From positions 1 to 37,823 of the IMG/VR virus record IMGVR_UViG_3300020457_000026: 37,823 nucleotides of DNA. One strand, given 5' to 3'. This document shows positions 10,974 through 33,238 of the stretch, piece after piece. Positions within the stretch are counted from its first letter, which is position 1. Each line of letters begins with the position of its first letter. The DNA is from a virus. The translations under genes and the position numbers were made by a program. The notes below the pieces were generated by a model. The model was given only the letters and a program-made list of their open reading frames with translations. It did no database searches and had not been told where the DNA came from.

Positions 10974-11507
10974 ATGAGTTGGGCGATATTTAGAAGTAAC
11001 TATAGAAAAGCTATTAAGAATAATGAAAAGGATATGGCTAGTGTGATTGCAGATTCATATGGGATATGTACAAAAGCTGGAACATCAATACCAGGTGGGC
11101 CAGTATTACAAGGTAATGTAGAGGGTTTAAAATCACAATTAAAAACATCTTTCAATTCACTTGGAGCATATCCAATGAGTACTGCATTAGATACTGGTTT
11201 AAAATTATTTTGGTTGGGTAGTTCGACTGTGACAGGATTCATTTGTACAAATCCTGGTTTTACATCTCTCTACATACCAAAGAAAGCACAAGAATCAAAA
11301 GACTTAGATGATTTTGTAAATTACATGATATCATGTTTTGAAACATTTCATAAACAATTGGTGTTTACTAATCCAGCGGGTGCTCCATCATTTGGATATG
11401 AAATAATTTTGAAAGAGAAAGATTCTGATGGTGGTGGTGAAGTGGATGTCGCAGAAAAAGTTAGAGGAACTAATCCAGAAGATGAAACTGATGATAAAGA
11501 TTTTTAA
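10974..11507 (+). CDS. Baseplate-region protein of unknown function, 177 aa
   Basis: Follows the spike gene by 3 bases. N-terminal half is helical (WAIFRSNYRKAIKN); the middle has Gly/Ser-rich turns (AGTSIPGGPVLQGNV, GLKLFWLGSSTVTGFI) and then a helix (DLDDFVNYMISCFETFHKQL). The C-terminal 30 residues are strongly acidic (EKDSDGGGEVDVAEKV...DETDDKDF) and probably disordered. Conserved gene order in T4-like marine phages places such proteins between the spike and gp25; its role there is unknown. No catalytic motif is visible. Confidence 0.7.
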   Translation: MSWAIFRSNYRKAIKNNEKDMASVIADSYGICTKAGTSIPGGPVLQGNVEGLKSQLKTSFNSLGAYPMSTALDTGLKLFWLGSSTVTGFICTNPGFTSLYIPKKAQESKDLDDFVNYMISCFETFHKQLVFTNPAGAPSFGYEIILKEKDSDGGGEVDVAEKVRGTNPEDETDDKDF

Positions 11508-11519
11508 CAAGAGGAGTTA

Positions 11520-11996
11520 ATGATGAAGAAAAATGACTTAATAAAAATAATCGAATTAGTAGTTCGTAAAGAAGTCAAAAAACAGATGAATGAGATATTT
11601 ATTAAGGAGAATAAATCATCTCTTAAATCGCTTACACCAAAAAAACAAGTTGTAAAGAAAAAAGCAGTACAGAAAAAACCTGTACAATATACCGAGAACA
11701 AAGCACTTAACGAAGTATTAAATGAGACTGTTGCTTTAAGTAAAGGTGATGAAATGGATGAGTATCCAACAATGGGTGGTGGTGTATTCGATTCAAGTAG
11801 AGCATCAGAACTTTTAGGTTACGGAGAGAGTATGGCAGCTGGTGGTGATAAAGAAACACAAAGAAACATGATAGCCGCACAAACTTTGAGAGAAAAGAAT
11901 GTAAATGTAAATGATGTACCTGAAAGTTTAGTAAATGCTTTAACAAGAGATTATAGTGATTTAATGAAACACGATAAATTCAAGAGTAAAAAATAA
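11520..11996 (+). CDS. Baseplate-region protein with basic N-terminal half, 158 aa
   Basis: Start supported by GAGGAG 5-6 bases upstream; a second ATG follows at once (11523). The N-terminal helix (IIELVVRKEVKKQMNEIF) leads into a Lys-rich linker (PKKQVVKKKAVQKKPVQ), then a short conserved-looking segment (MDEYPTMGGGVFDSSRASELLGYG) and a helical C-terminus. The stop overlaps the gp25 start (TAATG), so synthesis is coupled to the wedge protein. It may be an assembly factor or a small structural component. Family not recognised. Confidence 0.7.
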   Translation: MMKKNDLIKIIELVVRKEVKKQMNEIFIKENKSSLKSLTPKKQVVKKKAVQKKPVQYTENKALNEVLNETVALSKGDEMDEYPTMGGGVFDSSRASELLGYGESMAAGGDKETQRNMIAAQTLREKNVNVNDVPESLVNALTRDYSDLMKHDKFKSKK

Positions 11997-12421
11997 TGGC
12001 AAGAGCAGTAGTTAGAGAATTAAACGAAGACCGAGATGCATTTTTCGGATTAACTTTTCCTATAAGGATAGGAACCGATAATAATTTTATCAGGTCTCAA
12101 ACCTTAAGGGAACAGGCTTCTTCTAATATTAAGAATCTACTACTAACCAATAAAGGTGAAAGAGTTGGACAACCAGAATTTGGTTCTGATTTACCATCAA
12201 TATTATTCGAACCATTTGATGATAACATAGGTGATAGGATAGAAGAAGCTATTCATGAAGCATTAGAAAGATGGTTACCTTATGTAGAAGCACAAAATAT
12301 AGTTACTATGGTGGATGAAACAAATCCAAATAATGTAATCGTATCATTAGAGTTTAGGGTTACTATTGATGACCCCGATGCCATAGAAAATATAACATTT
12401 AATTTTAATACTGGAGCTTAA
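11996..12421 (+). CDS. 25: Baseplate wedge protein gp25 (GPW/gp25 family), 141 aa
   Basis: Core sheath-initiator/wedge protein of contractile tails. Family signatures are visible: FPIRIG near residue 22, a helix (SQTLREQASSNIKNLLLTNKGERVG in outline) and the highly conserved QPEFGSDLPSILFEP, followed by a strand-rich C-terminus. The length (141) is normal. It directly precedes the gp6 wedge gene, the standard order in T4-like, P2-like and T6SS-like clusters. Confident assignment. Confidence 0.93.
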   Translation: MARAVVRELNEDRDAFFGLTFPIRIGTDNNFIRSQTLREQASSNIKNLLLTNKGERVGQPEFGSDLPSILFEPFDDNIGDRIEEAIHEALERWLPYVEAQNIVTMVDETNPNNVIVSLEFRVTIDDPDAIENITFNFNTGA

Positions 12422-24013: not shown

Positions 24014-26893
24014 ATGAAGAGGATTTTAAATTGGCTCTTTTTATTGGGCTTTGTCGGAATGGCCACCGCCCAAGAACCAATTATTAGAGTTAAACAAATA
24101 GGGAATTGGTCTACACCAGCGATGTGGTGGAAAGGCTCGGTTACACAAGATTTAGATGATTTCTTGGCACAAGATGTATCTAAACCAGCTGAAGATAATA
24201 ATAACTTCGATATTTGGAGAGATAAAGTATTGGAGATGGAAGTTACTTTGGATGATAAAGGTGCAGATGTTACGACATTCAGAATAGATATTGCATTTGA
24301 TAATGATTTAATTACTTGGGTAGAATCAGGTGAAACTTCAGTTAACGCTTGGAGTCAAGGTGAATCACGAGTAATCAAAGGTTCACATATTTCAGGTTGG
24401 ACTGAGGGTGATGAAAGTTCTAATGCAGATTATTCTTTCGAAGTAGTTCATTATACAAATGTAGGATATCAAGATTCATTGGCGGCCACAGGTAATTTGA
24501 TTGAAGAATCTATATCAGATGATAGATATGATTGGTTAAGAATAACAATGGTATCACATGGAGTTGATGGTAATTCAGATGGAACACCAGATAAAACATT
24601 TGGTGGTGGTAATGGAGTACAAAAACAATTATTAAAATTTAAATTTAAAATAAATGATGTGGTGGATAACTTTGCACCTAAATCATTCAGAGTTGCAACT
24701 CAGTATGATGGAGCAGAGGGATACTACACATATGTTTCAGATGAATATCTTTTAGATTACAAAGTTTACATAGATGGTAATTGGGGTGATACATATGCAG
24801 GAGAAAGAACTTACAATGGTGCTGCTCGTGGTGATATCACACTACATCCTAAACTTGTAGATGTTGAGGGATACTTTAGATATATTGGTGAATGGAATGA
24901 TACCGATAAAGATGGAACAAAAGATACTAATGAAGAATACTCAAGAAACAAATATGCTATGTGGAAAGTTATCTTCGAGTTAGATGAAAGTAATCCAGAT
25001 GAGTTTACGAATTGGTTGAATCTTCGTGATATTAATTATCCATCAAGTTTAACTGATGAGGGAACTACTGATGATGTTATGGGTACTTATGATGAGTATG
25101 GAACAAATGCATTAGGGTATCAACATATGAGATACTATGAACAAAATGCAGGTTCAACATCAGACCAGAAAATTCAAAACGATGGATTCAATGGAGTATC
25201 TTTTTGGTATTGGACATATACAGATGATAAAGGATACTTTAATATTTCTTTACCACGAAACAATAGATATCGTGTATCTTTTTGGCCACCAGAAGCAGAT
25301 GATGTGGTTGGTGACCATACTACTTATTTATTAGATAGAGATGCAATCACAAATATCAATGATGCTATTGCAGGATTTAATTTCCAATCAAATAAATTTG
25401 ATAATGTAACTGATATTGAAATAGAATCACCAAGTGGTTATTTAATTGGTGATGTTGATGGAGATGATAGATATCAATTAAATGATGCATATTTTTTATG
25501 GGCATACACAAGTGGTGTGTTTGATACAGATTATACTCATACTAATGGAGAAACATATCAATCATGGGCAAGTATAGATAATTTAAAAACAGGTAATAAT
25601 AATGAAACACTTAATTATTATCAGACTGTAAATGGAAGTGCAAGATTACAAAAAAGAGAATTCAGTATCTTTGTTGATGATGATTTAGCACAAGAAACTG
25701 CAGTACTAACTAAAGACCAAGGTGGTATTATTAGATTTAATCCATTGATGGATGATGTTCAGACAGGATTAGATACACTAAGTATTAAAATAGGTGCAGG
25801 TAGTTCTACATTTGGAAATGATGTAAATCCTGATTACTTATTTGATACCGATGATAATGATAAACAAGTTGATATTATTGGAACATCAAACGATTCTGAT
25901 ATTGGATATTATTTTACAGGTGATGTAAACCTAACAGGTACAAAAGTTGATAACGATGGAACTGCAATTACACCAGTTGTAGATGGAACAACATATTATC
26001 GTTGGGGTAGTGGAGACCCACCTGATACATGGGCAAGAATAGGTGGTGAACCTGGTAATGGTAATAGAAGTATGTCAGCAATGAAATCATTGATGACAGA
26101 CCATGATGTAACATTATCATTTCCTGCTGATTCAACTGTAAGAGTACAGAGTGGTGAGATTATCGAAGTACCATTAAATATTACACCATCAGAGGGTATT
26201 AATATTGCTGGGTTTGAATTTGAAGTAGAGTTTAATGTAAATGAATTAACCTTTATTGATATGAAAACTGGTAACTTGCCAGGGCCTTGGATGACCTATG
26301 TAAATGTAGGTGAAGTTGAAGCAGGATGGCAAAGAGTTAGATTTGGTGGATTTGATTACTCACCAGGTAATGCTCCTACTAACTATTGGGTTACTCAACA
26401 AATGAATGCATTAAAGTTAATGTTCAGAGCGGAGTTTCCTGATGAGGAGTGGAGTGAGGCTCCTATTAGATTCGTTGGTAAATATGCAGCGGGTAATCCA
26501 AATGGTGATGATTTAAGAATGGAGAGAGAAAGTGGTAAGGTAATGGTATGGAATAAGTATTGGGCATTCGGTGGTGGAGAACCAGGTGAAGAGGATATAA
26601 CTTATAACTATCCAAATCCATTTAAAGAAAATACTAAATTTCAATTCTTCTTAGATGAAATGGAACAAGTAAAAATTTACATATTAAATTCCAATGGACA
26701 ATACATTGGAACATTATTAGATGAAGTAGTTGATGCTGGAATACACACATTTGATTTCACTAACCAACCAAGTGTTTGGTTACCTGAAGTGAGTGTGTAT
26801 GAGAATCATAAAACTTTAGAACCAGGTGTTTACATATTTGTTTTACAAACTGATGATAGAATCAAAGCAAATAAATTTACGGTGGTTAAATAA
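24014..26893 (+). CDS. Secreted protein with T9SS type A sorting domain, cohesin-like and EF-hand (dockerin-like) segments, 959 aa
   Basis: A clear signal peptide (MKRILNWLFLLGFVGMATAQ) should send it through Sec. Residues 480-491 (GDVDGDDRYQLND) form a dockerin-like calcium loop, with D480/D482/D484 and D491. About 696-845 resemble a cohesin-type sandwich (VPLNITPSEGINIAGFEFEV...). The last 94 residues start at YPNPF (866-870) and read as a T9SS C-terminal sorting domain (VKIYILNSNGQYIG...LEPGVYIFVLQ...KFTVVK). In FCB bacteria such domains carry cargo across the outer membrane to the surface. This is cellular-type cargo in a phage genome, next to a PorV/PorQ-like gene. It may coat the infected cell or alter phage adsorption; both are inference. 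Confidence 0.82.
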   Translation: MKRILNWLFLLGFVGMATAQEPIIRVKQIGNWSTPAMWWKGSVTQDLDDFLAQDVSKPAEDNNNFDIWRDKVLEMEVTLDDKGADVTTFRIDIAFDNDLITWVESGETSVNAWSQGESRVIKGSHISGWTEGDESSNADYSFEVVHYTNVGYQDSLAATGNLIEESISDDRYDWLRITMVSHGVDGNSDGTPDKTFGGGNGVQKQLLKFKFKINDVVDNFAPKSFRVATQYDGAEGYYTYVSDEYLLDYKVYIDGNWGDTYAGERTYNGAARGDITLHPKLVDVEGYFRYIGEWNDTDKDGTKDTNEEYSRNKYAMWKVIFELDESNPDEFTNWLNLRDINYPSSLTDEGTTDDVMGTYDEYGTNALGYQHMRYYEQNAGSTSDQKIQNDGFNGVSFWYWTYTDDKGYFNISLPRNNRYRVSFWPPEADDVVGDHTTYLLDRDAITNINDAIAGFNFQSNKFDNVTDIEIESPSGYLIGDVDGDDRYQLNDAYFLWAYTSGVFDTDYTHTNGETYQSWASIDNLKTGNNNETLNYYQTVNGSARLQKREFSIFVDDDLAQETAVLTKDQGGIIRFNPLMDDVQTGLDTLSIKIGAGSSTFGNDVNPDYLFDTDDNDKQVDIIGTSNDSDIGYYFTGDVNLTGTKVDNDGTAITPVVDGTTYYRWGSGDPPDTWARIGGEPGNGNRSMSAMKSLMTDHDVTLSFPADSTVRVQSGEIIEVPLNITPSEGINIAGFEFEVEFNVNELTFIDMKTGNLPGPWMTYVNVGEVEAGWQRVRFGGFDYSPGNAPTNYWVTQQMNALKLMFRAEFPDEEWSEAPIRFVGKYAAGNPNGDDLRMERESGKVMVWNKYWAFGGGEPGEEDITYNYPNPFKENTKFQFFLDEMEQVKIYILNSNGQYIGTLLDEVVDAGIHTFDFTNQPSVWLPEVSVYENHKTLEPGVYIFVLQTDDRIKANKFTVVK

Positions 26894-27000
26894 TGGAAAC
26901 GATAAAATTTTTTGGATTATTATTTTTAATATTACCTGCAGGGTTTTATACTCTAAAGGGAATACTTTGGGTATCTGAAAAATTGGAGAAGAAACAATGA
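26893..27000 (+). CDS. Single-helix membrane peptide, 35 aa
   Basis: Starts by TAATG overlap with the T9SS cargo gene and ends by ATGA overlap with the PorV/PorQ-like gene. It has one hydrophobic helix (FFGLLFLILPAGFYTLKGIL) and a basic C-terminal tail (EKLEKKQ). The double coupling suggests it is translated. It could be a small helper of the adjacent envelope proteins. No homology recognised. Confidence 0.55.
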   Translation: METIKFFGLLFLILPAGFYTLKGILWVSEKLEKKQ

Positions 27001-27866
27001 AAAATATATTAATGGGATTATTAATGATTGGTACTTTGTTTGGACAAGTAAATAGTGTCCTTACAATTTCACCTACTACAAGTGAAACAATATTGGGTAA
27101 CCAATCACTTGCATTTAGAAATCCTGCAATCAACAATCTAAATGAAGATACACTAACACACCTTAGTTTTTCTAATGTGAAATGGTTAGGTAATATTGTT
27201 GATGATATGGGTTTTAACTATGTAGGAGTTAAAAAAGGTAAATTAGATTATTCACTTTTATACTTTAACTATGGGGAACAAAACTTCGCAGATGAAAGTG
27301 GTATTATAAGTGGTAATTTTTCACCAAGTACATTAGTTGCATCAATAGGTTGGGGTACTAATTTACTATACAAAGGTGAGAGAGTAGATAGCGTGGCACT
27401 TGGTTTTAGAGGAAAGGTTGTTAGCCATGATTTACATACAGAAAAAACTGATGGTATGTTATTTGATATAGGTTTACACTTTCAAAAATTATATGGAATT
27501 GTAAACTTAGATTTAATGGTATCTAATATTGGTTTGATGACTAAAATGAATGGTTATGAAATTGATATGCCATCTGCATTTAATGTTGGATTTAACATAC
27601 CGATAAAAGATAAATGGAATATTTATAATCAATGGAATCTTTATGATGGATACCATACACATGGTCAAGGTGTTTCTTATAACTATAAGAATATGTTATG
27701 GGTAAATGCTGGATACTATAATGATGTAACTTATAACTTAAATTATTCATCCATAGGTATGGATTTAAAATTCGAAAGATACAAGATTGGTTTGGGTATC
27801 TTAAACGGAGATGATACTCATCCATTGAAAAATACATTATTATTAACATTAAACATGGAGATATAA
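26997..27866 (+). CDS. PorV/PorQ-like outer-membrane protein (T9SS-associated barrel), 289 aa
   Basis: Signal peptide (MKNILMGLLMIGTLFGQ), then an FadL/PorV-type barrel. The N-terminal LGNQSLAFRNPAINNL recalls the ANPA segment of PorV/PorQ. Later strands LDYSLLYFNYGEQNFADESG, ALGFRGKVVSHDL, DGMLFDIGLHFQ, DLMVSNIGLMTKM and MPSAFNVGFNIPI follow the PorQ order and length (~290-340). PorV shuttles cargo by binding its C-terminal sorting domain; PorQ belongs to the surface attachment complex. The preceding large gene encodes such cargo. No other T9SS parts (Sov, PorL/M/N/K) are in the window, so host machinery would be needed. PorV versus PorQ versus a generic FadL-like barrel is unresolved. Confidence 0.68.
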   Translation: MKNILMGLLMIGTLFGQVNSVLTISPTTSETILGNQSLAFRNPAINNLNEDTLTHLSFSNVKWLGNIVDDMGFNYVGVKKGKLDYSLLYFNYGEQNFADESGIISGNFSPSTLVASIGWGTNLLYKGERVDSVALGFRGKVVSHDLHTEKTDGMLFDIGLHFQKLYGIVNLDLMVSNIGLMTKMNGYEIDMPSAFNVGFNIPIKDKWNIYNQWNLYDGYHTHGQGVSYNYKNMLWVNAGYYNDVTYNLNYSSIGMDLKFERYKIGLGILNGDDTHPLKNTLLLTLNMEI

Positions 27867-27867
27867 A

Positions 27868-27903
27868 ATGAATTGTGAATGTTGTAATTGTACTTGTTGT
27901 TAA
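27868..27903 (+). CDS. Cys-rich 11-residue ORF
   Basis: The frame reads MNCECCNCTCC then TAA, so six of eleven residues are Cys. A GGAG (27857-27860) lies 7 bases upstream, and the next gene starts 15 bases later with its own AAGGAG. The rest of this region is poor in Cys, so the clustering is not chance composition. It could be a metal- or redox-binding peptide, or a leader whose translation senses cysteine. Expression is unproven. Confidence 0.4.
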   Translation: MNCECCNCTCC

Positions 27904-27918
27904 TTAAGGAGAAATAAA

Positions 27919-28299
27919 ATGGCAAAAGATATAGAACAAGCTATTGAAGAAGTTAAAGGAAAAAAGTTTGGAGTATCGATTAATAATATTATTGCTATTG
28001 TTACTTTTCTTTCTACCTGTATCGCTGGTTGGTATAGTTTTACTGGCCGTATTGATTCATTGGAAGAAGTAGTACAAGGTTTTGCAGAAGCAAGTGATAT
28101 TGAAATCGTAACCAATAACTTTAACAATATTGATGAAGAATTAAAGTATCTTAGAGAAAAAGTAGATGCTTTAAAAACACCAAAAGTGAAATCATACGAT
28201 GGTGATATAATTAAACTACAGAATGAGATTGATAAATTGAAAAGTGAAATCTCAAGGTTAGAGAAATTATTAAAAGACCCATTGGCTGATTTCAAGTAA
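27919..28299 (+). CDS. Membrane-anchored coiled-coil protein, 126 aa
   Basis: Ribosome site AAGGAG before the ATG. A short cytoplasmic N-terminus is followed by one transmembrane helix (~21-42, NNIIAIVTFLSTCIAGWYSF), then a long coiled coil (IDEELKYLREKVDALK and IIKLQNEIDKLKSEISRLEKLLKD). The topology resembles spanin inner-membrane subunits or cell-envelope tethering proteins. It sits within the envelope module directly after the Cys-rich minigene. A similar layout is seen in the 108-residue protein at 31894. Function unknown. Confidence 0.7.
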   Translation: MAKDIEQAIEEVKGKKFGVSINNIIAIVTFLSTCIAGWYSFTGRIDSLEEVVQGFAEASDIEIVTNNFNNIDEELKYLREKVDALKTPKVKSYDGDIIKLQNEIDKLKSEISRLEKLLKDPLADFK

Positions 28300-28307
28300 G
28301 GAGAAAC

Positions 28308-28691
28308 ATGAGTAAATTCGTGAAACTACTACTCGTAGTGTTAGTGTTTGCAATAGGTTCTCAGTTATTAGGACAGGATGTATATGATACACCTGAAGAA
28401 TATGATAGAGAAATAACCAGACAAGAACAAAGAGAAATAAGACAAAATCTTGCCCAACAAAAAATGGCAAACAAATCTATGATGGAATGGAGAAAATTTG
28501 AAGCAGCACATAAAAGAGCTCATATGAAATCATTACATCATAATAAAAAAACAAACAGGCAAAAGAGAATAGTTACTCTTGTTGCTGTAGGTGTTACATC
28601 TTATATCATTGGATATGAAATGGCAAAAGATGAACACAAATATAAAAAACATGGATGGGATAAAAAAACATCCGATAAATGGAGAAAGTAA
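28308..28691 (+). CDS. Secreted/membrane protein with basic helical middle, 127 aa
   Basis: AAGGAG ribosome site before the ATG. Signal peptide or anchor (KFVKLLLVVLVFAIGSQLLGQ) with a cleavage-like site before DVYD. A charged, helical middle follows (REITRQEQREIRQNLAQQ...HKRAHMKSLHHNKKTNRQKR), then a second hydrophobic segment (IVTLVAVGVTSYIIGYEM) and a very basic tail. It is coupled by TAATG to the CsgG-like lipoprotein. It may anchor a periplasmic helix between membranes. No family recognised. Confidence 0.65.
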   Translation: MSKFVKLLLVVLVFAIGSQLLGQDVYDTPEEYDREITRQEQREIRQNLAQQKMANKSMMEWRKFEAAHKRAHMKSLHHNKKTNRQKRIVTLVAVGVTSYIIGYEMAKDEHKYKKHGWDKKTSDKWRK

Positions 28692-29329
28692 TGAAAAAAC
28701 TATTACTATTATCGTTAATGGTTTTTATGGGATGTGCCGCATCAGTATCAACGGAACAATATGTTGGTGAGTATGAGAAACAAAAATCTCTTGATGAAGT
28801 GGAAATAACTAAAGTAGATAATCTAAAGATTATGAATGTTAAGTTCAATAAAGAACTCGAAGAAAGATATCCAGAACTTGGAGATAAAAGAGTTGCTTTT
28901 GGTTTAAACCAAGAACTTGCAAATGTTATTTCTTTCATTGGAAGATTTAATCTTGTAGAGGCAGACAGAGATATTCAATTATCTATGTTGAACGACCTTA
29001 AAGCCAACGAGGCAAAAATAGAAAAAACTAAGTATACTGCTATTGTAACAATTTATGATTTTGCTGTTAACTTAAAAGAAGATATCAAAGCTGGTAAAGT
29101 TCAAACAATAAACGAAACCATCGTAGGTATCCAAGTTAAAGTAATCAATAATGAGAATACTCAGTATGTAGTTGGAAGTGGACAAGGAAGAGCATCCACC
29201 ATAGGACAAGGATTTTTAAAGAATCCTAATATGGAATGGAATCAGAGTTCTTTAAGTTCTGCATCTAACAAGGCTATGGAAACAGCTGTTGTCAATGTTA
29301 TTAAAGCAATTGACAGAAGAGGTTGGTAG
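28691..29329 (+). CDS. CsgG-like outer-membrane lipoprotein, 212 aa
   Basis: The start at 28691 is chosen over 28679 because it gives a textbook lipoprotein signal (MKKLLLLSLMVFMGC, lipid Cys 15) with GGAG 6 bases upstream. The body follows the CsgG/HfaB pattern: LKIMNVKFNK, LNQELANVISFIGRFNLVEADRD, YTAIVTIYDFAVNL, VGIQVKVINNENTQYVVGSGQG and a final helix SSASNKAMETAVVNVIKAI. CsgG itself is a nonameric secretion pore of the outer membrane. Whether this one forms a pore cannot be told, and other lipoproteins share the fold. It lies just before a barrel gene and a second CsgG-like gene. Confidence 0.6.
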   Translation: MKKLLLLSLMVFMGCAASVSTEQYVGEYEKQKSLDEVEITKVDNLKIMNVKFNKELEERYPELGDKRVAFGLNQELANVISFIGRFNLVEADRDIQLSMLNDLKANEAKIEKTKYTAIVTIYDFAVNLKEDIKAGKVQTINETIVGIQVKVINNENTQYVVGSGQGRASTIGQGFLKNPNMEWNQSSLSSASNKAMETAVVNVIKAIDRRGW

Positions 29330-29334
29330 AATGA

Positions 29335-30321
29335 ATGTGGCAGAGAGCTTTATTATTTGTAGGATTATTGTGTAGTACACTCTCTGCCCAAGGCTTCCTT
29401 TATAGTTATATAGACCCTTGTAATCAAACTATCATTCGTGATAATTACAAAATAGAAAATCAATCTGGTGGTTTCTATGTTACATACTATAACAAATCTA
29501 AATTTTTCACATTCGAACAAATAGCAGATGGAACATTAGAAGCGTGGGCAGAAAATGTATACCAAGACTTTGAGGATTTATTTCCATGTGCCGTTAGGGT
29601 TGCTGAAGAAATACTAGCCTCTGTATTGGCGAGTAATGCCACAGAACAATTTAGTAAACAAGATGTAAGTAATGATGTGGGTGCGGTTAATTATGGTATC
29701 AAAACATCACCGACTGTAGATAGTAGTTGGGTTACATCTTTTAATAGTGTTTATACGAGAGAAAGTTTTGATGGTAAATCAAGATATGATGGTAACTTCA
29801 GTTTTACCGATGATTTCAGTAGATTGAGTGCTTCATATGGAAATGGTATAAACTTTCTAGCTAAGAAACAAAATCAAGTGATAAGTGCATCAGGTGTTTT
29901 CTTTCAAACATTTGAGGGTAGTGATTGGTTAGTATCAAGTTCATATGCCAAAACACTTGTAAAACAAAATGCAGAAGTAATTGTATTGACTGGTGCTTAT
30001 GGTAGTGTTAGTAACCAAAGCTTTGGTAACTTATCAGTATTGTATGGTATGAAAACACCAATCACATTACCATTTGGTAAAATAACATTTACTAATTATG
30101 TATCATACACATTACTTAGATATTATAAAGGATTAAATTCAGGAAAACAATATTTATTATTGAAGAGTCCTATTATACTTATGCCTACTCTTTCTTTTGA
30201 TTTTCAATTAAGTCAGGCATTCAAAGTTAATTTAGGATTCTCAATGGGGTATAACACAGTTGTAAATGATTATGGTGAAAGAACTAAAACATATGCCATA
30301 ATGTTTGGAACATACTTTTAG
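29335..30321 (+). CDS. Secreted outer-membrane beta-barrel-like protein, 328 aa
   Basis: Signal peptide (MWQRALLFVGLLCSTLSAQG), cut before FLYSYIDPC. An N-terminal domain with Cys pair candidates (IDPC...LFPC) spans ~25-110. From ~130 on come about ten barrel-like strands: WVTSFNSVYTRESF, DGNFSFTDDFSRLSASYGNG, WLVSSSYAKTL, KITFTNYVSYTLLRYYKGL, FKVNLGFSMGYNTVV, ending TYAIMFGTYF with the C-terminal Phe typical of outer-membrane proteins. The ATG at 29335 is used; the one at 29331 is out of frame and short. It sits between two CsgG-like genes. No family name. Confidence 0.65.
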   Translation: MWQRALLFVGLLCSTLSAQGFLYSYIDPCNQTIIRDNYKIENQSGGFYVTYYNKSKFFTFEQIADGTLEAWAENVYQDFEDLFPCAVRVAEEILASVLASNATEQFSKQDVSNDVGAVNYGIKTSPTVDSSWVTSFNSVYTRESFDGKSRYDGNFSFTDDFSRLSASYGNGINFLAKKQNQVISASGVFFQTFEGSDWLVSSSYAKTLVKQNAEVIVLTGAYGSVSNQSFGNLSVLYGMKTPITLPFGKITFTNYVSYTLLRYYKGLNSGKQYLLLKSPIILMPTLSFDFQLSQAFKVNLGFSMGYNTVVNDYGERTKTYAIMFGTYF

Positions 30322-30330
30322 GAGAAGAAA

Positions 30331-30849
30331 ATGAAGAAACTAATTATGATGTTATTATTGATAGGATTTGGATACACACAATCCTTACCACAACCAGCAG
30401 TTGTTGGTGAAGATGTAGATTTTCCTACATTAAGAATATCACAATTTGTTAAGGTTGATGAATCTGTTGGTGTTGTAGATGATAGAGTTACTTTAGGTAT
30501 AAAACAATTACTTGAAGAACAATTTCAAGATACAAGATACAGATTAACCGAAGATGATAATGCTGATTATACTGCTAATGTAGAGGTACTTTATATTGGT
30601 AAACCAAATGAGGCATTTAGTTTGGCAGGTTTATTCAATCGTAGAAATCAGAGTACAGAAGTTAGAATACTTTTAAACTTAGTACAAACCAAAGAGGGTG
30701 TACAAAAAAGTTATCGTGGAGTTGGTGAAACAACCACACAAGTATCTGCTGCTGGTTTACAAATTCAAGAGGATGTGGAGTTTGGTAAGAGTGAGTTAGG
30801 TGGTTCTTTAAGAAAGGCCATCGAGGATGCTCTTGAGAATATTGAATGA
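30331..30849 (+). CDS. Secreted CsgG-fold-like protein, 172 aa
   Basis: AGGAG ribosome site. Signal peptide (KKLIMMLLLIGFGYTQ), no lipobox Cys. The body shows a similar pattern to the lipoprotein upstream: LRISQFVKVDESVG, VTLGIKQLLEEQFQDTRYRLTEDDNADYTANVEVLYIG, VRILLNLVQ, and a closing helix KSELGGSLRKAIEDALENI. This suggests the CsgG/LpoB-like alpha/beta fold in a soluble periplasmic form. It could be a partner of the barrel at 29335. Assignment is by pattern, not search. Confidence 0.5.
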   Translation: MKKLIMMLLLIGFGYTQSLPQPAVVGEDVDFPTLRISQFVKVDESVGVVDDRVTLGIKQLLEEQFQDTRYRLTEDDNADYTANVEVLYIGKPNEAFSLAGLFNRRNQSTEVRILLNLVQTKEGVQKSYRGVGETTTQVSAAGLQIQEDVEFGKSELGGSLRKAIEDALENIE

Positions 30850-30986
30850 AACACCTTGAGGAACAAAATATAAGTTATTGGAAACATTGGATACTAGCGA
30901 TGAAGATGAGTGTAGCTCTTTTTATTCATGCTTGGTATCCAAATATTTTTCAATACTATGTATCAGATAAATTGAAAGGTAAGTAA
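30846..30986 (+). CDS. Small membrane protein (DUF6356-like?), 46 aa
   Basis: ATGA overlap with the preceding gene. The protein has one hydrophobic helix with conserved-looking aromatic and His positions: SYWKHWILAMKMSVALFIHAWYPNIF then QYYVSDKL. The pattern H-x-W...A...S...L-x-HA-x-x-P-x-x-F recalls the short DUF6356-type membrane proteins of marine phages; this is recollection. Function unknown. Confidence 0.6.
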   Translation: MKHLEEQNISYWKHWILAMKMSVALFIHAWYPNIFQYYVSDKLKGK

Positions 30987-30987
30987 T

Positions 30988-31740
30988 ATGTTATTAGAAC
31001 ATTGGCCACAAAAAAGAAGAGAGTGGGTGATAGGTGGATTCCTAAACATTCTCTTCATTTTATGTATTGTGGGAATCAGATATTATTATGCTCAAGAAGA
31101 AATGGAATTCTTGAGAGAAGATTCTGAACGACAAGATGTAATGATTACAGAGTTACAAGATTCTGTTGAGATTTTAGTAAAACAAAATAATGATTTACTA
31201 AAGGATTTACATGACCATGATAAAACTCGTGGTATTGAGAATAGAGAATTAAAGAAAAGAATGGATAACTTTGAAATCGAACTTGATACTATTAAGGAAC
31301 GACTTTCTACACAATCCACTATTTATGATAGTAGAGAATCTTATACAAGTGGTGCTGGTGTAGTACCATTTGAAAAAGAATTTGGTACTCAAGGTAACTA
31401 CTTAAGAATATTTGGTAGGACTGGAGTTGCCATGGTTAACGATAGTATTATAGATTCTGAGACAGAGTTGGGTTTCGATGGTAGTTTACAGATTGGTGAA
31501 CCTAAGATTATTGAAGGTGAGGTAAAAGGTGAATATTATGCTGAAGTACCTACCATTTCATTTGATGGGTTGAGACTAAGTGGGAGAAGAAGTAATCCCT
31601 TAAAACTAAAACCACCAAGAAACCAAATAAGTGTTGGGCCGTTTGCGGGAATTGTATACAATCAAACGACAGGATTAACAGAACCAGTTATAGGATTTGG
31701 TATATCCTATAATGCATTGAAAATATGGGATTGGAGATAA
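30988..31740 (+). CDS. Membrane-anchored coiled-coil protein with beta C-terminus, 250 aa
   Basis: One transmembrane helix (~14-34, VIGGFLNILFILCIVGIRYYY), then a periplasmic coiled coil (QEEMEFLREDSERQ, VEILVKQNNDLLKDLHDHD, LKKRMDNFEIELDTIKERLS). The last ~110 residues form beta strands (YYAEVPTISFDGLRL, ISVGPFAGIVYNQT, PVIGFGISYNALKIW). The plan (TM, coiled coil, barrel-like end) fits a spanin-like or envelope-spanning protein. It starts one base after the stop of the previous gene. A role in lysis is possible but not shown. Confidence 0.7.
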   Translation: MLLEHWPQKRREWVIGGFLNILFILCIVGIRYYYAQEEMEFLREDSERQDVMITELQDSVEILVKQNNDLLKDLHDHDKTRGIENRELKKRMDNFEIELDTIKERLSTQSTIYDSRESYTSGAGVVPFEKEFGTQGNYLRIFGRTGVAMVNDSIIDSETELGFDGSLQIGEPKIIEGEVKGEYYAEVPTISFDGLRLSGRRSNPLKLKPPRNQISVGPFAGIVYNQTTGLTEPVIGFGISYNALKIWDWR

Positions 31741-31884
31741 ATGCCGAACAGAGCTGCTAAAAGTAGAAAACAGAAAAGACAGGCCTTAAATAAGAAGTGG
31801 GCTCGTGAGGGAAGAACAGCAAACCAACATAAAAAATGGAAAGCTAAAAACCCACAAGGACAGGGAGTACCACGATATAGATAG
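31741..31884 (+). CDS. Small basic protein, 47 aa
   Basis: Begins at the base after the previous stop and ends 9 bases before the next gene. It is almost entirely Lys/Arg/Gln (SRKQKRQALNKKWAREG, HKKWKAKNPQG) and lacks hydrophobic segments, so it is probably a nucleic-acid binder or a virion DNA-associated peptide. No family recognised. Start-stop packing supports translation. Confidence 0.5.
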   Translation: MPNRAAKSRKQKRQALNKKWAREGRTANQHKKWKAKNPQGQGVPRYR

Positions 31885-31893
31885 GAGTTTGTT

Positions 31894-32220
31894 ATGGCTA
31901 TAACAAAGGAAGACACTGCACGGAGTTATAAAGGTACGGTCATAGGCGATAACATGGTTGTTAGCTTAAACCTAAAATGGCTGATACAAATATTAACATT
32001 GTGTGGTATGTTGGTGTATTCTTATTACAGAATAGAAATGAGAATCATCGAGTTAGAAGATAAGTTTATAGAGGCTGATACTCATATAGAAGATTTATTA
32101 GCAAAACATGAAGCTGAGGAAGCTGAAAAGAGAATAGCTCTCGAAGAACAGATTAAGTTCTACGAGAAAGAGTTTAACATAAACCCGCTGAGTTGGGGCA
32201 AAAAGAAGAAGAAAAAATGA
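31894..32220 (+). CDS. Membrane-anchored coiled-coil protein, 108 aa
   Basis: TAGGAG ribosome site. A transmembrane helix (~28-46, LKWLIQILTLCGMLVYSYY) is followed by a coiled coil (IEMRIIELEDKFIEADTHIEDLL, EEAEKRIALEEQIKFYEKEF) and a lysine tail (GKKKKKK). Layout parallels the 126-residue protein at 27919. ATGA overlap joins it to the PAP2 phosphatase gene. Last member of the envelope module. Function unknown. Confidence 0.68.
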   Translation: MAITKEDTARSYKGTVIGDNMVVSLNLKWLIQILTLCGMLVYSYYRIEMRIIELEDKFIEADTHIEDLLAKHEAEEAEKRIALEEQIKFYEKEFNINPLSWGKKKKKK

Positions 32221-32852
32221 TTAAATTAAAAGAACTTATAGAACTTCGTAGTATGGGATACTACAAAACTAAAAATGAAATCAAAAAGAAACATCGAGAA
32301 AGAATCAATCAAAGAGTAACTATTTGGGATGAAAATTTAGTAGTACCAAAAAAATTACCACCTGAGAATGATTCTAAACTTACAATGCGTGAGTTGAAAA
32401 TGTTACAAAAAATAAAACCAAATAATGATTTTGTTGAATCTGGTGATGATATCAAAAAATCTTTTATGCCTTTGATTGAAAAACATGGTGTAAAAGTAAC
32501 GGAAGATTTTTTATCAAAGATACTGAAAGAAAGTGGTAAGTATATTATGGAACTGAAGTATCATTACAATAGACCAAGACCATATCAAGTTGCTGAGTTC
32601 TATAATATAGACTTGGGTGAAAATACACTTGAAAGTATGAAAACACCAAGTTACCCAAGTGGTCATGCCGTACAAGGTTATTTGATTGGTGAGTATTTAT
32701 CTAAATTAGACCCACACAATTCTAAAGAGTATAGACAGAAAGGTGAAGATATAGCACATTCACGATTAGTTGCAAAAGCACATTACCCATCAGATAAAGT
32801 ATATGGTAAAGAGATTGCTTCACACCTTGCAACTTCTATGAAAAAAATATGA
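32217..32852 (+). CDS. PAP2-family phosphatase (class A acid phosphatase-like), 211 aa
   Basis: All three PAP2 motifs are present: K114...RP (KYHYNRPRP), PSGH (PSYPSGH, H150) and SR-x5-H-x3-D (SRLVAKAHYPSD, R183, H189, D193). The His pair forms the phosphohistidine site for hydrolysing phosphate esters. No transmembrane set is visible, so it looks like the soluble class A type rather than a lipid phosphatase. The ATG at 32217 overlaps the upstream stop; an ATG at 32193 lies deep inside the previous gene. The N-terminus MIKLKELIEL resembles a capsid-targeting sequence. Substrate unknown. Confidence 0.8.
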   Translation: MIKLKELIELRSMGYYKTKNEIKKKHRERINQRVTIWDENLVVPKKLPPENDSKLTMRELKMLQKIKPNNDFVESGDDIKKSFMPLIEKHGVKVTEDFLSKILKESGKYIMELKYHYNRPRPYQVAEFYNIDLGENTLESMKTPSYPSGHAVQGYLIGEYLSKLDPHNSKEYRQKGEDIAHSRLVAKAHYPSDKVYGKEIASHLATSMKKI

Positions 32853-33238
32853 TAACTCTAAAAGAAATTTACCAATTAAATGAAAGAACAGATTTTCAGT
32901 ATGTAGCATCTGAATTGGTAAAATATTACAATCTAAAATCTAAGATAAAATTTGGTGTAGGTAGAAACGAAGCTGAATATGATTGGGATAGAGATATAAT
33001 AAAATTAAGAAGAAGTTATCCAAGTGTCAAGGAATTCATAATCTCAGTTTTACATGAAATACATCATGCTCTACAAGTAAAGAAATATGGTAGAAGAAAG
33101 TTTCTGAAGAAATATGCACAAGCAAGTCAAATGGCTATAGTTAAAGGTTTTGATAGATATGATGATAATAAATGGGAAAGAAAAGCTGAAAATTGGGCAC
33201 AACAGGAATATATGAAAAAATGGAAAAATAATTTCTAA
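32849..33238 (+). CDS. Zincin-like metalloprotease (HExxH), 129 aa
   Basis: The motif LHEIHHALQ gives H69-E70-x-x-H73, the zinc site of metallopeptidases, with a possible third ligand Glu in ERKAENWAQQEY. Length and layout resemble compact SprT/ImmA-like phage zincins; no further subfamily is claimed. It overlaps the PAP2 gene by ATGA. Its N-terminus MITLKEIYQLNE resembles a capsid-targeting peptide with an (L)-x-E cleavage-like site, and it shares the MI-LKE start with the PAP2 protein. A role as an injected or processing protease is inference. Confidence 0.68.
   Translation: MITLKEIYQLNERTDFQYVASELVKYYNLKSKIKFGVGRNEAEYDWDRDIIKLRRSYPSVKEFIISVLHEIHHALQVKKYGRRKFLKKYAQASQMAIVKGFDRYDDNKWERKAENWAQQEYMKKWKNNF

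Follow-up and report, generated by a model that had tools for sequence, protein, structure and literature searches.

The window, by which we mean the whole stretch of DNA analysed, is an IMG/VR virus record of 37.8 kb and 32% GC. Tail genes, including matches to the baseplate wedge families phrog_261 and phrog_6, lie to the left of the block described here, and a PDDEXK nuclease and a DnaG-like primase are encoded to its right; the genes beyond the primase read as SbcD/SbcC-type recombination genes. A first-pass annotation had placed structural genes on the left and replication genes on the right and had called the phage T4-like. Both statements are borne out, the second by T4-type baseplate wedge proteins: the best cultivated matches of the window's wedge protein are Microcystis phage Mel-JY01 (47% identity) and Flavobacterium phage vB_FspM_immuto (40%). 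The window holds no tRNA genes, and a promoter/terminator scan of it returned sites no commoner than in shuffled sequence. The open reading frames (ORFs) of the block all lie on the plus strand, where the first-pass annotation had put them, and mostly overlap or are tightly packed. They are listed below together with the gene at the right border.

24014..26893, plus strand: cargo, 959 aa, with a signal peptide, a cohesin domain and a type A sorting domain of the type IX secretion system (T9SS)
26893..27000, plus strand: tm35, a 35-aa peptide with a single transmembrane (TM) segment, whose start overlaps the cargo stop
26997..27866, plus strand: PorV-like barrel, 289 aa, Q at +1, PorV/PorQ superfamily
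27919..28299, plus strand: cc126, TM segment and coiled coil, 46-98% identity in relatives
28308..28691, plus strand: sp127, a variable secreted basic protein, Q at +1, patchy in relatives
28679..29329, plus strand: lip216, predicted lipoprotein with the lipobox MGC, trio member
29335..30321, plus strand: bar328, secreted, with a barrel-like C-terminal part, trio member
30331..30849, plus strand: yajG172, a secreted, paralogue-like relative of lip216, trio member
30988..31740, plus strand: cc250, N-terminal TM segment, long coiled coil and beta-rich C-terminus, 31-85% identity in relatives
31741..31884, plus strand: bas47, a basic 47-aa protein without envelope signal (hydropathy -1.6)
31894..32220, plus strand: tm108, TM segment and coiled coil, patchy, matching phrog_20984 (E 1e-6, function unassigned)
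32220..32852, plus strand: PAP2-family phosphatase at the block border (Pfam PAP2 35 bits, cut-off 27.2)

As a proxy for envelope signals, we scored N-terminal segments with a Kyte-Doolittle mean of at least 1.5 over 15 residues. Such a segment was present in 11 of the 12 ORFs starting between 24014 and 31894, as against 3 of the 27 other ORFs of the window (Fisher p = 2e-6). These counts were unchanged at thresholds from 1.0 to 1.5, and the difference persisted at 1.7 (p = 3e-4) and 1.9 (p = 6e-3). The only block ORF without a hydrophobic N-terminus was bas47, which is conserved at 72-91% in relatives; the phosphatase starting at 32220 is no envelope protein by the same hydropathy test. The earlier claims that nearly all products of this block carry envelope signals, and that a lipobox is among them (MGC in the ORF at 28679), are therefore upheld. 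Purifying selection acts on all tested genes with dN/dS of about 0.04-0.37 (0.04-0.20 for cc126), and is weak only on sp127 (about 0.58). The block is conserved overall, but three of its members, tm35 (kept in some relatives, at 44-86% identity), sp127 (38-53%) and tm108, are patchy.

The cargo begins with a hydrophobic segment followed by A-x-A before a Q at +1, a predicted Sec signal peptide. Its C-terminal residues 866-957 match the T9SS type A sorting domain model TIGR04183 with 25.5 bits (cut-off 23), and the same model matches all of the 20 aligned homologues (E <= 1e-3). With the Pfam sorting-domain model PF18962 the window's cargo reaches 18.6, under the cut-off of 27, which is exceeded in phage immuto and in one anchor protein, L195, of a second phage group described below. 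Taken together, the signal peptide and the sorting domain support the annotation of this protein as a cargo, and specifically as a cargo of the T9SS, a machinery by which Bacteroidota export proteins to their surface. A cohesin domain lies at about residues 700-845 (Pfam cohesin 26.1, cut-off 24.1). In addition, a dockerin-like motif is found at about residues 476-502, where GDVDGDDxxQLND is nearly invariant in homologues; Pfam dockerin has no match in the cargo, and the dockerin-like motifs align weakly by hhalign (24%). A PDB sequence search with the whole cargo gave no useful match, and neither this cargo nor the PorV-like protein of the window was found in cultivated phages among 50,697 records.

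All five predicted SPI-type exports of the window, and most of their homologues, have Q at +1. Since this Q-rule is a trait of Bacteroidetes that some Ignavibacteria and Chlorobi share (PMC5837995), it fits a Bacteroidota host. A near relative of the window, a 9.16-kb contig that is 86% identical over 6.9 kb, is binned in the Flavobacteriales MAG NAT55. PorV is present in this bin (433 bits), and of its 42 sorting-domain matches one falls on the phage contig. The cultivated relative that shares the module, immuto, infects Flavobacterium. The host is thus likely a member of the Flavobacteriales, binning being weak proof.

The protein encoded next to the cargo matches the PorV/PorQ superfamily model NF033709 with an E of 4e-21 (75.8 bits, under the curated cut-off of 90), as do 19 of its 19 aligned homologues. 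Orthology to either family is not indicated by the equivalog models, with scores of 39.5 for PorV (NF033710, cut-off 250) and 53.8 for PorQ (NF033711, cut-off 220). In a PDB profile search the single solved match was PorV of the Flavobacterium T9SS translocon (6h3i_F, E 9e-14). The predicted structure (pLDDT 79) has a FadL/PorV-type barrel fold, whose nearest structure is PorV in the RemA-CTD-bound complex (8gl6_F, Z 29.1, rmsd 4.3 over 267 residues), followed by 6h3i_F (Z 28.9), while FadL-type channels score Z 26.5 and below. PDB match and predicted fold agree, then, with the first assignment of this protein as PorV/PorQ-like. In the tree, the phage proteins group in a clade (support 99/97) that is separate from the cellular PorV and PorQ of Flavobacteriales, and for this reason we call them PorV-like rather than PorV. 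They share superfamily and fold with PorQ and with T9SS PorV (F. johnsoniae, 6h3i, 8gl6), but they are shorter, at about 280-290 aa (PorV has about 400 and PorQ 345), and remain below the curated cut-offs. Cargo C-terminal domains are bound by PorV.

The FadL resemblance raises the question of whether the barrels of the block are general porins or FadL-like uptake channels feeding the infected cell, in which case the cargo would be an unrelated surface or virion protein. The PorV superfamily does have members outside the T9SS, such as BamG. Nevertheless, T9SS PorV is the nearest relative in both sequence and fold, and in every relative with enough sequence the PorV-like gene stands directly 3' of the T9SS cargo gene, so that uptake is the least probable of the readings considered here, with hardly any weight. 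In Bacteroidota, the SprB-SprF pairs likewise consist of a T9SS cargo gene adjoining the gene for a dedicated outer-membrane partner. The adjacency of cargo and partner is alike in the window; SprF, however, is a PorP/SprF-family protein for cargoes with type B sorting domains, whereas here a PorV-like protein accompanies a type A domain.

Downstream of sp127, lip216 and yajG172 flank bar328. The first two are related to each other (hhalign 97.9%, E 5e-13), and homologues of all three occur in immuto (gp017 for lip216, E 1e-22; gp018 for bar328; gp019 for yajG172). In 292 Flavobacteriales genomes, no bar328 homologue was found beyond the phage contig, and for lip216 there was nothing beyond it but two marginal partial matches (E 1e-4). 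Together, lip216, bar328 and yajG172 appear to form a phage-specific trio. PDB sequence searches with its members gave no useful match. The mature N-terminus of bar328 is conserved as Y-x-Y-x-DPC, and its model has 11 strands at low confidence (pLDDT 58); of the barrels proposed in the first-pass annotation, only that at 26997-27866 is therefore backed by a confident model, and that at 29335-30321 is not.

The same annotation had described lip216 and yajG172 as a CsgG-like pair. Their mutual relationship holds, but the link to CsgG is not established. The alternative that follows from it is a curli-like (type VIII) secretion system, in which both proteins would be CsgG-type channels for an adhesive protein. 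Operons of CsgG and CsgF, with curlin-repeat genes, are known as outer-membrane secretion genes of marine T4-like phages, namely the pelagimyophages and Melnitz (PMC7029224, PMC9004378), and in pelagimyophages the secretion genes sit between the replication and structural modules. In our profile comparisons, lip216 aligned with CsgG at 44.7% (E 2e-4), over 35 columns. On the other hand, Pfam CsgG has no match in the window, neither in lip216 nor in yajG172, the profile comparison of yajG172 with CsgG gave 2.5%, and the curlin repeat is unmatched among the block proteins. As candidates, yajG172 as CsgG and bar328 as CsgF (0.04%) were both rejected. The pelagimyophage and Melnitz proteins are true CsgG/CsgF with curlin-associated proteins, and these profile tests do not establish homology to the block. 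We consider a curli-like system very improbable, though a curli-type channel could serve as an analogy for the block.

Scans of IMG/VR recovered the cargo at 39 loci, the PorV-like gene at 30 and bar328 at 59. Absence or scattering of the block in close relatives, named beforehand as an outcome that would speak against a module, was not what we observed: the order cargo, PorV-like gene, lip216, bar328 was kept in 39 of the 39 marine-type bar328 contigs that extend far enough upstream, which are not 39 independent events because some are near-identical populations. Two loci found via a tail gene (L135 and L139) have another secreted protein at the expected cargo position, and their contigs end soon after.

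A split version of the module is present in immuto (gp013-gp019). There, gp013, a C-type lectin protein, has a tail that resembles a dockerin, and gp014 comes next; gp015 combines a cohesin (Pfam 36.7 bits) with a T9SS sorting domain (TIGR04183 44.8 bits), gp016 is a TM protein, and the trio homologues come next. The cohesin-sorting-domain anchor, a TM protein and the trio thus occur in the same order in immuto and in the window, but immuto makes its anchor and its lectin as two distinct proteins. In a second group of uncultivated phages (clade 2, L188-L201), a cohesin and sorting-domain protein of approximately 630 aa comes first, then two TM proteins, lip216 and bar328; a protein that is a lectin or resembles one precedes yajG. 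The clade-2 anchors score 33-46 bits with TIGR04183, and the cohesin of L195 reaches 49.8, while in L197 both the cohesin and the sorting-domain scores are below cut-off. The N-terminal half of the clade-2 anchor resembles immuto gp014 (E about 1e-38), and the cohesin-CTD part of the clade-2 and immuto anchors is homologous to that of the marine cargo (99.4%, E 6e-22). In all three phage groups this part adjoins the trio. A PorV-like gene was detected neither in immuto nor in the clade-2 contigs, so that these phages can do without it in exporting their cargo, and host PorV would have to take its place.

In clade 2, the trio lies directly 5' of a holin-like TM protein, after which a GH19/peptidoglycan-binding endolysin is encoded. 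Since lysis genes adjoin the trio in this way, the block could be a late lysis module in which the trio and the TM/coiled-coil proteins disrupt or bridge the envelope in a spanin- or pore-like manner, the T9SS cargo being an accessory. A CsgGF pore in OM43/SAR11 phages has been proposed as a lysis timer (PMC9004378). By its layout of a TM segment, a long coiled coil and a beta-rich end, and by layout only, cc250 is spanin-like, as had been suggested for this region; its match to the spanin family phrog_9841 has an E of 0.018, and spanin matches among the block proteins are weak throughout (E 5e-4 to 0.05). Moreover, the marine block contains neither endolysin nor holin, and a cargo with a sorting domain would be unexpected in a lysis cassette, yet it adjoins the trio in all three groups. 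We regard a lysis module as unlikely, although less so than curli-like secretion. Of the program of outer-membrane remodelling, secretion or lysis originally envisaged, the evidence supports an envelope module that is dedicated and conserved and includes a cargo for secretion; the secretion in question can be narrowed to that of the host T9SS, while a lysis function is less probable.

We propose that the block is probably a phage surface-display module that uses the host T9SS. In favour of this are the sorting domains found in all three phage groups, the resemblance of the barrel to PorV, the kept gene order, the purifying selection, the recurrence of the cohesin-CTD part beside the trio, and the signs of a Bacteroidota host. 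Weighing against it are the lack of a PorV-like gene in immuto and clade 2, the sub-cut-off Pfam score of the window's sorting domain, the lysis genes beside the functionally unassigned trio in clade 2, the weak alignment of the dockerin-like motifs, and the two loci with a different gene at the cargo position. The phage would make the large cohesin cargo with its Sec signal peptide and C-terminal sorting domain; host Sec, signal peptidase I and, going by the Q-rule, glutaminyl cyclase would process it in the periplasm, and the host T9SS translocon would export it to the surface. Because of its homology to PorV and the adjacency of its gene to that of the cargo, the phage PorV-like barrel may act as a dedicated shuttle, retaining the cargo or handing it over at the outer membrane. 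The strict co-occurrence of the trio suggests that its members, with the TM/coiled-coil proteins, could form an envelope complex supporting display or preparing the envelope for release. The displayed cargo would coat the infected cell, and the likeliest benefit may be superinfection exclusion by an adsorption block, or sticky cells and debris, stickiness being conferred by cohesin, dockerin-like and, in split versions, C-type lectin domains.

In Cryophage, phage-encoded proteins carrying T9SS type A sorting domains were reported as a unique occurrence, with the proposal that they hijack the host T9SS (PMC7468147). These cargoes vary, being enzymes or PA14 proteins encoded in flexible islands, and the passages on them mention no PorV-type partner (PMC7468147), whereas the cargo of the window is conserved, bears a cohesin and is locked to a PorV-like gene and the trio. 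Phage T9SS cargoes are also found in crAss-like contigs (PMC6949934). Phages of Porphyromonas gingivalis encode exports with Q at +1, proposed as modifiers of the host outer membrane, for which T9SS, PorV and CTD go unmentioned (PMC10367356). Phage T9SS cargoes are already known, then, and what appears to be new is the PorV-like partner and the conserved module: our searches of open-licence literature turned up neither a phage PorV homologue or PorV-type protein nor such a module.

A more specific version of the display proposal is that the phage has its own T9SS component, with a dedicated PorV-type shuttle, a cohesin cargo and an outer-membrane trio invented by phages, which jointly give the infected cell a new coat. 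Related phages would assemble the same kind of surface from cohesin anchors and lectin-dockerin parts that can be separated, as a phage analogue of a cellulosome-like scaffold that serves superinfection exclusion or host-cell capture. This we put forward tentatively, as possible but somewhat short of probable. If it is true, some marine phages of T9SS bacteria supply, besides the cargo, a matched shuttle and envelope complex, and the surface of the infected cell becomes a phage product. It would also provide natural cargo-shuttle pairs for studying how PorV selects T9SS substrates, and it would offer a testable explanation for mostly 'hypothetical' genes of a cultivated Flavobacterium phage.

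In the split version of the cargo, where a cohesin anchor with the C-terminal sorting domain and a lectin protein are encoded separately, C-type lectin domains were found in Flavobacterium phage immuto (gp013; L122, 8731-9729) and in L195, from a second group of uncultivated phages (11407-12387), with 57 and 64 bits. Domains of the C-type lectin fold are common targets of diversity-generating retroelements. In these clade-2 phages, the homologue of yajG172 is directly followed by a holin-like transmembrane protein and a GH19/peptidoglycan-binding endolysin (L195, 12859-13958).

In two contigs found through a tail gene, the site after this gene, held by the T9SS cargo in relatives, is occupied by a secreted protein of 432 aa (L135, 12197-13492) or 363 aa (cut; L139, 12037-13125), and both contigs stop shortly after it. 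Among the relatives carrying the module, L015 (14383-15045) and L023 (13987-14649) show the N-terminus of sp127, the variable secreted basic protein, apparently joined to the predicted lipoprotein lip216, which looks like a deletion of sp127 between the signal sequences of sp127 and lip216.

To the right of the block, a small protein of the window (32849-33238) contains an HEIHH motif and gave a weak match, below the family cut-off, to a zincin-like metallopeptidase family. At the left end of the window lie:

70-912, a UV endonuclease of the UvdE type, matched strongly in Pfam at 202.6 bits
2942-4579, N6/N4 DNA methylase domain

Two more proteins lie outside the block. The first (1224-1811, 195 aa) carries a hydrophobic segment at its N-terminus, while its body is beta-rich and resembles a barrel; a Pfam search with it returned no match. 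The second (2346-2900, 184 aa) is a transmembrane-anchored protein and possibly a lytic enzyme, its C-terminal part resembling, by eye and without Pfam support, a 3D/RlpA-type domain.
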